From the NCBI GenBank assembly GCA_944325355.1, contig CALUZS010000005.1, positions 1 to 64,000 of the forward strand: a stretch of 64,000 nt of DNA, read 5' to 3'. Below the pieces are notes generated by a model that saw only the letters and a list, made by a program, of their open reading frames with translations, ran no database searches and was not told the origin of the DNA. Each line of letters begins with the position of its first letter. Within the stretch, counting starts at the first letter, position 1. Of the stretch, positions 5,213 to 60,771 are shown piece after piece. This stretch comes from an uncultured Parabacteroides sp. (lineage in GTDB: Bacteria; Bacteroidota; Bacteroidia; Bacteroidales; Tannerellaceae). The position numbers and the translations under genes were made by a program.

Positions 5213-5243
5213 CAAAGATAATACGCGCTCTCAGATTTGCCAA
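5213..5243 (-). promoter_or_regulatory. Promoter of the phosphoesterase pair
   Basis: On the minus strand TTGG, a 19-nt spacer and TATCTTTG match the Bacteroides -33/-7 consensus. Initiation a few bases downstream leaves a 5' leader of only about 10-15 nt before the ATG at 5194. Confidence 0.7.
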
Positions 5244-5285
5244 CGGCTCTTCCGGCAGACGACCGCAGAAAGACGGAATACACAT

Positions 5286-5326
5286 AAAAAAAGGAGACCA
5301 CATCAGAAATTCCAATGCCATCTCCT
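5286..5326 (-). terminator. asnS: Terminator of asnS
   Basis: Reading the minus strand, AGGAGA pairs with TCTCCT across a 23-nt loop and is followed by seven T. It lies 35 nt after the asnS stop codon. Confidence 0.6.
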
Positions 5327-58642: not shown

Positions 58643-60334
58643 TCATTCCCATTCTGGCGGTTCTTGTTTCAACAAATGTTTGACGAAGAAGTCTTGCATT
58701 TTGTGTATTTCAAAATCGCCCCCCAGATTGTGTGTTTTACCCGGCAGGTAAAGTTGGTCAAAATTTTTACCGGCTTTCATCAACGCGCTGATGACTTGCA
58801 AAGTCGATGCCGGGTCAACATTATCATCCAGTTCTCCGTTAATCAGCAACAATTTGCCTTTTAACCGATACGCATTGTCCACATTTGATGAAGCGACATA
58901 AGAGGAATCGACCGGATATCCCATCCATTGCTCGTTCCACCAAATTTTATCCATCCGGTTATCATGGCATCCACAAAATGATACAGCCACTTTATAAAAA
59001 TCGTTATGGAACAACAATGCTCCCATTGCATTCTGTCCGCCTGCCGACCAGCCATAAATACCGACACGTTCCAAATCCATATACCGATATTTTTTACCAG
59101 CCGCTTTTATCCATGCAATACGATCCGGGAAGCCGGCATCTTTCAGATTTTTCCAACAAACATCGTGAAAAGCCTTTGAACGGTTAGCGGTGCCCATTCC
59201 ATCAATTGAAACCACAATAAACCCTAACTCTGTAAGCCGGGAAATCAGATGATGAAATGGCTGAAAATCTTTCACGACATGCGAATCATGAGGACCGGCA
59301 TAAATCATTTCCACTACCGGATAACTACGGGATGGGTCAAAATGCATCGGACGATAAATATTCCCCCAAATATCGGTTTTACCGTCGCGTCCTTTGGCAC
59401 AGAACACTTCCGGCATTAACCAACCCGCAGCTTGCAACTCGCTGACGTCACAATGTTGCAACTCCAAAACGACAGAAGCGTCTTCAGCCCGTTTTAGCAG
59501 GCTTATCGGCGGCAAGTCTGGACGGGAATAGACGTCTGTGAAATAACGCCGGTCAGCAGAGAAGGTAACATGGTGATTACCGGCTTCGGGTGTCATATCC
59601 ACAAAATCGGTTCCGTCTAAACGGATTCGGCAATAATGCAAGTTGTAAGGATCCTCTTTTCGGTTGAAACCTGATGCGGTAAAATAAACAATCCGGTTTG
59701 TTTCGTCTACAAAATCTACCCGACGAACGACCCATTTTCCTTTGGTTATTTGCTGTTTAATTTGTCCGTTACTACCATCAACCAGGTATAGATGACGCCA
59801 ACCGTCCCGTTCAGAAATCCAAAGCAGCTCTTTCCCATCATTCAAATCATATCGGAAATTATTGTTATAGTAAATAAAAGTAGGGCTTTGCTCGTCAACT
59901 AAATGCCGAATCGAGCCATCCGTAGCCGAAACTTCACCAACGATATATCGTTGATGCCCCCGTTGATTGAACTCGAACGTGAAAGCCCGGCTGTCACTCC
60001 TCCAACCGGTCAGATAAAGAGCATATTGGTTTTCATAAAGTGCAGTTTCCAATGGAATCTGTTTTTGTCCTACAACATCGAAAAGAACAGGCAAACAAAT
60101 CGGCAACACATCTCCTGGCTTTGCATAATTACGCCATTGCAAAACAGGTTGCTTTCGGTAATCCGGGCTGGACTCTATCAACGGAATGCGCCGCTCCTCT
60201 GTCTCGCGCACTTTGACAGTTGCCAACTTTCGTGAATCGGGAGACCACGCAAGCGACCGATCGTCATAACGAAACCGTTCTGTACCATCCATTGTCAATG
60301 CAATTTCTCTTCTCCCCTCTTTTTGTAAAGGCAC
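58643..60334 (-). pseudogene. S9 (DPP IV-like) peptidase, 3' part of a split gene
   Basis: Starting at the GTG 60334 it codes 563 residues: the beta-propeller part (AWSPDSRKLATVKVRETEERR onward) and a complete alpha/beta-hydrolase domain with GWSAGGQNAMG (catalytic Ser), a catalytic Asp in NGELDDNVDP and His in GKTHNLGG. The N-terminal signal and first beta strands are in the preceding frame (60334-60765). The two frames are joined at a TA repeat. If unrepaired, this piece would lack a signal peptide and remain in the cytoplasm. Either a broken gene, a phase-variable gene or a sequencing error. Confidence 0.75.
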
Positions 60335-60765
60335 TATATATAATAATCCTTAATATATGTCTCCCAACATTTGTCCGGAGAGACAATTCCTTTCCGTTCT
60401 TCTTCCTTATGATACATTGTTTGCGACCGATGTTTCTCTTTTTGCAGAAAAGATTCAATCTCTGCTCTTTTTTCTTGCGGAAAAAATTTTACCAATCCGG
60501 CTTTGTTGTCTGCTCTATATTTCTCACCCTTCTCTGCATCGACCAAATAAAAAAATTCCCCATCTTTCTCATGATTTTGATACCAGAAATAGTGTAAACT
60601 GTCTATCCATTCCGGCTGAATAGAAGAAGAATAAACCAACCGGGCATAATACGAAACCGTGTCGGCTCGTAAATAATCGGCACGTGTCACCTGAGCCACC
60701 GTATATTCACTCATAACAGACAGCAGCACATAACATAGAGAAATAAAAAAAATCTTTTGTTTCAT
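60334..60765 (-). pseudogene. S9 (DPP IV-like) peptidase, 5' part of the split gene
   Basis: 143 residues from ATG 60765: a signal peptide (MKQKIFFISL to VAQ) and the N-terminal segment seen in Bacteroidota S9 peptidases, with VTRADYLRADTV, FWYQNHEKDGEFFYLVDAEKG and SPDKCWETYIKD. The frame ends in TAG at 60336-60334, exactly where the next frame begins with GTG (TAGTG), so the stop and start overlap. Confidence 0.75.
60335..60342. repeat. (TA)4 dinucleotide repeat at the frame junction
   Basis: Eight bases TATATATA sit at the point where the S9 reading frame shifts. With one TA fewer the two frames fuse into one continuous peptidase (DYY-I-VPLQ). This makes slippage the simplest explanation of the split. 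Confidence 0.75.
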
Positions 60766-60771
60766 TGTCAC

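Follow-up and report, generated by a model that had tools for sequence, protein, structure and literature searches.

The window, a stretch of 64,000 nucleotides from an uncultured Parabacteroides sp., carries on its minus strand an S9 peptidase gene (58643-60765) that consists of two overlapping frames out of register. What is such a gene? A first-pass annotation of the sequence offered four options: a recent pseudogene, a phase-variable switch, two frames coupled in translation at a stop/start overlap, or an error in the sequence. Recent loss of function is the best supported of the four, since 14 of 14 close orthologues are intact, the nearest sampled species lack the gene, the 3' part remains constrained, and this copy is alone among close orthologues in being split. 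The locus is thus probably a recently frameshifted allele, or incipient pseudogene, of a secreted accessory serine peptidase of family S9 with a DPP IV-like fold. The observed part of this explanation comprises the two frames, the intact orthologues, a narrowly confined shift zone, and the constraint retained in the 3' frame.

Two reading frames and their junction

The layout of the gene is given in Table 1. The 5' ORF, for which a GTG listed at 60771 is merely an upstream extension, starts with a hydrophobic, signal-peptide-like stretch and, in alignment, shares 41-52% identity with intact orthologues over their residues 1-140. Alone, it matched no Pfam or NCBIfam model. Thus, of the earlier description of this frame, the signal-peptide-like start stands, and the "DPP IV-like N terminus" derives solely from the alignment with orthologues. 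The 3' ORF matches both PF00930 (DPPIV_N; E 7e-43, 147.1 bits, cut-off 22) and PF00326 (Peptidase_S9; E 1e-43, 149.6 bits, cut-off 22.6) and is 75-83% identical to Parabacteroides orthologues. The Ser, Asp, and His motifs (GWSAGG, ELDDNV, and KTHNL) are all kept within it, confirming the intact catalytic set that had been noted. Judged by these two domains, the gene can be assigned to peptidase family S9 (the prolyl oligopeptidase family). A full propeller and catalytic domain in one exported chain is not what is found, however, as 143 and 563 residues are encoded in different frames.

Table 1. Features of the split S9 peptidase gene (positions in the window).
Feature	Start	End	Strand	Description
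5' ORF	60334	60765	-	143 aa, ATG at 60765 to TAG at 60336-60334; N terminus resembling a signal peptide, followed by the beginning of the propeller domain
3' ORF	58643	60334	-	563 aa, GTG start at 60334-60332; remaining DPPIV_N-type propeller and S9 catalytic domain
Shift zone	60334	60352	-	limited by the upstream TAA of the 3' frame (60352-60350) and the TAG of the 5' frame (60336-60334)
TATATATA at the junction	60335	60342	-	read from the sequence
TAGTG stop/start overlap	60332	60336	-	read from the sequence

Because the 3' frame is closed by a TAA five codons before its GTG, the change of frame must lie within about 16 nt. The frame positions, the TA repeat, and the TAGTG overlap, in which the 5' stop overlaps the 3' start, were all verified, and the gene is indeed split at the repeat. 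The accompanying statement that one TA fewer restores a single frame survives as only one among several equivalent descriptions, given that alignment with the orthologues yields a net difference of 4 nt. "One TA too many" is therefore an arithmetic description of the shift rather than a demonstrated event.

Orthologues and gene context

The search for orthologues covered 39 Parabacteroides genomes and recovered 14 close ones from other species of the genus, 75-83% identical in the 3' part. Each is an uninterrupted frame of about 700-745 aa, with an N-terminal portion that corresponds to the 5' frame in alignment and a remainder that corresponds to the 3' frame. Since every one of them is a single frame, the split copy here is the broken one. 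In the orthologues, the junction encodes a conserved KDNN(L/I/V)(Y/H) strand. Here, several positions of the junction are different: YY replaces the conserved NN, and the sequence is, by alignment, 4 nt shorter in net terms.

Among the close orthologues, the split is confined to this copy. A check of 90 wider loci turned up one more case, L059 (in the draft genome of Bacteroides rodentium JCM 16496), in which the 3' part is divided between two frames; there the split lies at a different place (about 5213-5306), has no TA repeat, and may be either an independent loss or a draft error. Two further variants were seen among the relatives. In L021 (G018:C142) and L042, an SGNH/GDSL-hydrolase-like sequence precedes the orthologue in the same open frame (~946 aa in total), so that a hydrolase seems to be fused to the S9 peptidase. 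An in-frame TAG occurs in a more distant S9 paralogue (56% identity; G023:C487:10243-11826).

The adjacent gene encodes a PstC-like permease, by which the nearest species are G028, G017, G034, and G011 (about 70%). A close orthologue of the peptidase is absent from all four, the best S9 match in them being about 36%, and in the species that do carry it, the flanking genes are not those found here. This absence from the nearest sampled species, together with the differing neighbours among carriers, marks the S9 peptidase gene as accessory, having been either acquired or repeatedly lost. Being missing from the nearest sampled species, it also looks dispensable.

Selection on the two parts

Codon models were fitted with branch lengths that were shared between the two parts and taken from the 3' part. 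A free-branch fit of the 5' part was dropped because of saturated synonymous changes and a branch length that hit its bound. With synonymous sites near saturation, the values are rough: for the 3' part, omega is 0.071 on this gene's branch versus 0.053 elsewhere, a difference that is not significant, and for the 5' part it is 0.27 versus 0.11 (2dlnL 22), still below 1. Relaxed selection is therefore not seen in the 3' frame, and the 5' frame has evolved faster without reaching neutrality. In a model that allows a late neutral phase, at most ~2% of the branch is neutral for the 3' part (the lnL drops by 1.9 at 0.02), and the best fit for the 5' part lies near 10% of the branch. Given that the 3' frame is still under purifying selection, the break would have to be recent.

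Within the 5' frame, most of the excess change falls in the last ~60 codons (60337-60520, minus strand), where 9 of 18 conserved positions are altered, as against 2 of 24 earlier in the frame. The sequence flanking this segment is normal on both sides. A recombinant origin of the 5' part was considered and ruled out, as its best matches come from the same orthologue group as those of the 3' part and are just more diverged.

This asymmetry between the two parts is not predicted by a simple recent death of the gene. The faster 5' frame was accordingly counted as evidence against a dead gene, as was the fact that both frames are open, so that some product could be made. Divergence of the 5' part probably began before the break. 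The asymmetry, with the 3' frame at the background rate and the 5' frame faster, would also fit a 3' ORF that is now an independent, functional cytoplasmic protein beside a decaying 5' ORF. However, the mature 5' part is not degraded over its first 60 codons, those with the 2 changes in 24, and its frame is open, the 3' ORF begins with a GTG inside the propeller domain, and such a form is seen in no relative. The probability of an independent 3' protein is thus close to negligible.

The TA repeat

The shift zone itself holds a dinucleotide repeat, in which a change in the number of units would alter the frame, and both frames are still open. These features speak for the proposal of a switch, in which slippage of (TA)n would make the peptidase alternate between on and off. 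A dinucleotide repeat at a frame change does recall the contingency loci of Haemophilus, Neisseria, and Campylobacter, which undergo repeat-mediated translational phase variation, but the tract here has just 4 units, is not conserved, and is of a kind that is common elsewhere in the genome. In a survey that took in 864 kb in stretches (roughly one third of the genome, with ORFs of at least 100 aa), there were 74 (TA)/(AT) tracts of at least 4 units; 52 of these fall within ORFs, and six longer tracts (5-6 units) are present inside ORFs that stay open. The (TA)4 at the junction is unremarkable in this genome.

The tract is also too short by published standards. For dinucleotide phase variation, the cut-off in Campylobacter is at least six units (PMC6321876), and that in Haemophilus, whose known TA switch comprises 9-11 units, is at least five (PMC2651432). 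Furthermore, the repeat is present in 0 of the 14 orthologues, and phase variation in Bacteroides and other Bacteroidales is described in a review as based on DNA inversion (PMC11868660). Against this evidence the proposal of a phase-variable switch found no support and is highly improbable; the mutation is most likely an ordinary loss of function.

Elsewhere in the 864 kb examined, the longest simple repeat is a (GA)12 at G000:C1:2199 (L149), outside ORFs of at least 100 aa, which is a better candidate for variation in repeat length than is the junction (TA)4. Another candidate is a (C)11 at G000:C2:187732.

Recoding and re-initiation

Alternatively, ribosomes might slip or re-initiate at the junction, so that a functional product is still made. 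Three features are compatible with this idea: the continuing constraint on the 3' frame; the TAGTG overlap; and the codon ATA, which stands before the stop of the 5' ORF and appears again two bases further on, in the 3' frame. The overlap was evaluated by simulating one-base shifts in the orthologues. About 17% of the simulated frameshifts produce an overlapping stop and start by chance, and the TAGTG is therefore no sign of coupling. At the junction itself, no slippery heptamer was found, and downstream of it no RNA structure was detected above chance (z -0.5). No orthologue shares the arrangement, and a re-initiated product of 563 aa would be made without the signal peptide and the early propeller strands. 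Near the start, promoter-like sites are no more frequent than in shuffled sequences, and no match to a strict Bacteroides-type promoter was found upstream. Recoding or coupling is consequently very hard to credit, and the coupling at the stop/start that had been suggested earlier is unsupported.

More broadly, a split gene that is still productive, either by ribosomes crossing or restarting at the junction or by (TA)n slippage that turns the gene on in some cells, would be a secreted peptidase under new control. We consider this quite improbable. If the allele did switch, or if the junction were translated across, this would be a rare example, in Bacteroidales, of a secreted peptidase controlled by a repeat or by recoding.

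Sequence error

The remaining option is that the gene of the organism is intact and the draft carries a local indel error from sequencing or assembly. The assembly is a 24-contig draft (99.6% completeness, no contamination), and a single change separates two frames that are otherwise constrained, the 3' frame being almost without decay. The lone split of the same gene in another draft genome (L059), although at another place, likewise lends some weight to an error. To gauge how common such splits are, 1065 ORFs from three congeners were compared with 864 kb of this genome. Of the ~180 orthologue-like places that were recovered, only 1, this gene, is in two frames; the other flagged matches read as upstream extensions or shadow ORFs. 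Indel errors are thus uncommon, which rules against an error-ridden assembly. In addition, the site is not a long homopolymer, and it differs from the orthologues by more than one miscalled base, given the change of NN to YY and the net loss of 4 nt. The suggestion of a sequence error accordingly fails as a matter of general error-richness and persists as one local error at this site, which we regard as unlikely but as carrying some weight.

Expected products of the split gene

The fold of an intact orthologue, predicted with confidence from an alignment of 29 rows (pLDDT 85, pTM 0.83), places the junction at early strands, about residues 133-146. By this model, the signal helix and the initial propeller strands would be missing from the 3' ORF, for which a fold from its single sequence was uninformative (pLDDT 38). 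Since the 5' piece has no catalytic residues and the 3' piece has neither the signal peptide nor the first propeller strands, neither would be expected to be an active exported peptidase.

A recent loss of function could be pictured as follows. The gene would have been broken where an AT-rich stretch encodes a strand of the N-terminal beta-propeller, by a small mutation that changed the frame. Translation would end after 143 aa, with a short exported fragment as its product, and the catalytic part could be obtained only through inefficient re-initiation at the GTG. We infer a loss of activity, a recent break, and a mutation in the organism rather than in the assembly. The gene is most likely non-functional, an incipient pseudogene of a dispensable peptidase.

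For annotation, an automatic pipeline would call the locus either a frameshifted pseudogene or two proteins, and the two-protein call would be misleading. Beyond annotation, the significance of the locus is small.

Relation to DPP IV and other S9 peptidases

The gene shares with a Bacteroidota subfamily of "S9 family peptidases" the signal-peptide-like N terminus, the DPPIV_N propeller, and the S9 catalytic domain with its Ser/Asp/His motifs. Orthologues in Parabacteroides and the wider Bacteroidota are 55-83% identical and are single ORFs, unlike the copy here. By sequence, the closest solved relatives of the 3' part are structures of Porphyromonas gingivalis DPP IV (PDB 2d5l and 2z3z; E 3e-55 for 2d5l), and btDPP4 (PDB 7y4f; E 3e-36) is also near. 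A DPP4-like enzyme of P. merdae has been studied (PMC11221189).

The stretch before a conserved WSPD is ~10 residues shorter here and in relatives than in P. gingivalis DPP IV. We take this stretch to be the place of the double-Glu motif with which DPP IV binds the amino terminus of its substrate. The subfamily thus seems, from its sequences, to lack the double-Glu loop altogether, and classical dipeptidyl peptidase activity is doubtful even for the intact orthologues. With its members ~10 residues shorter just where DPP IV has this loop, the name DPP IV is unsuitable for the subfamily. Of 30 relatives checked among the wider orthologues (L039-L117), nearly all have an equally short stretch preceding WSPD.
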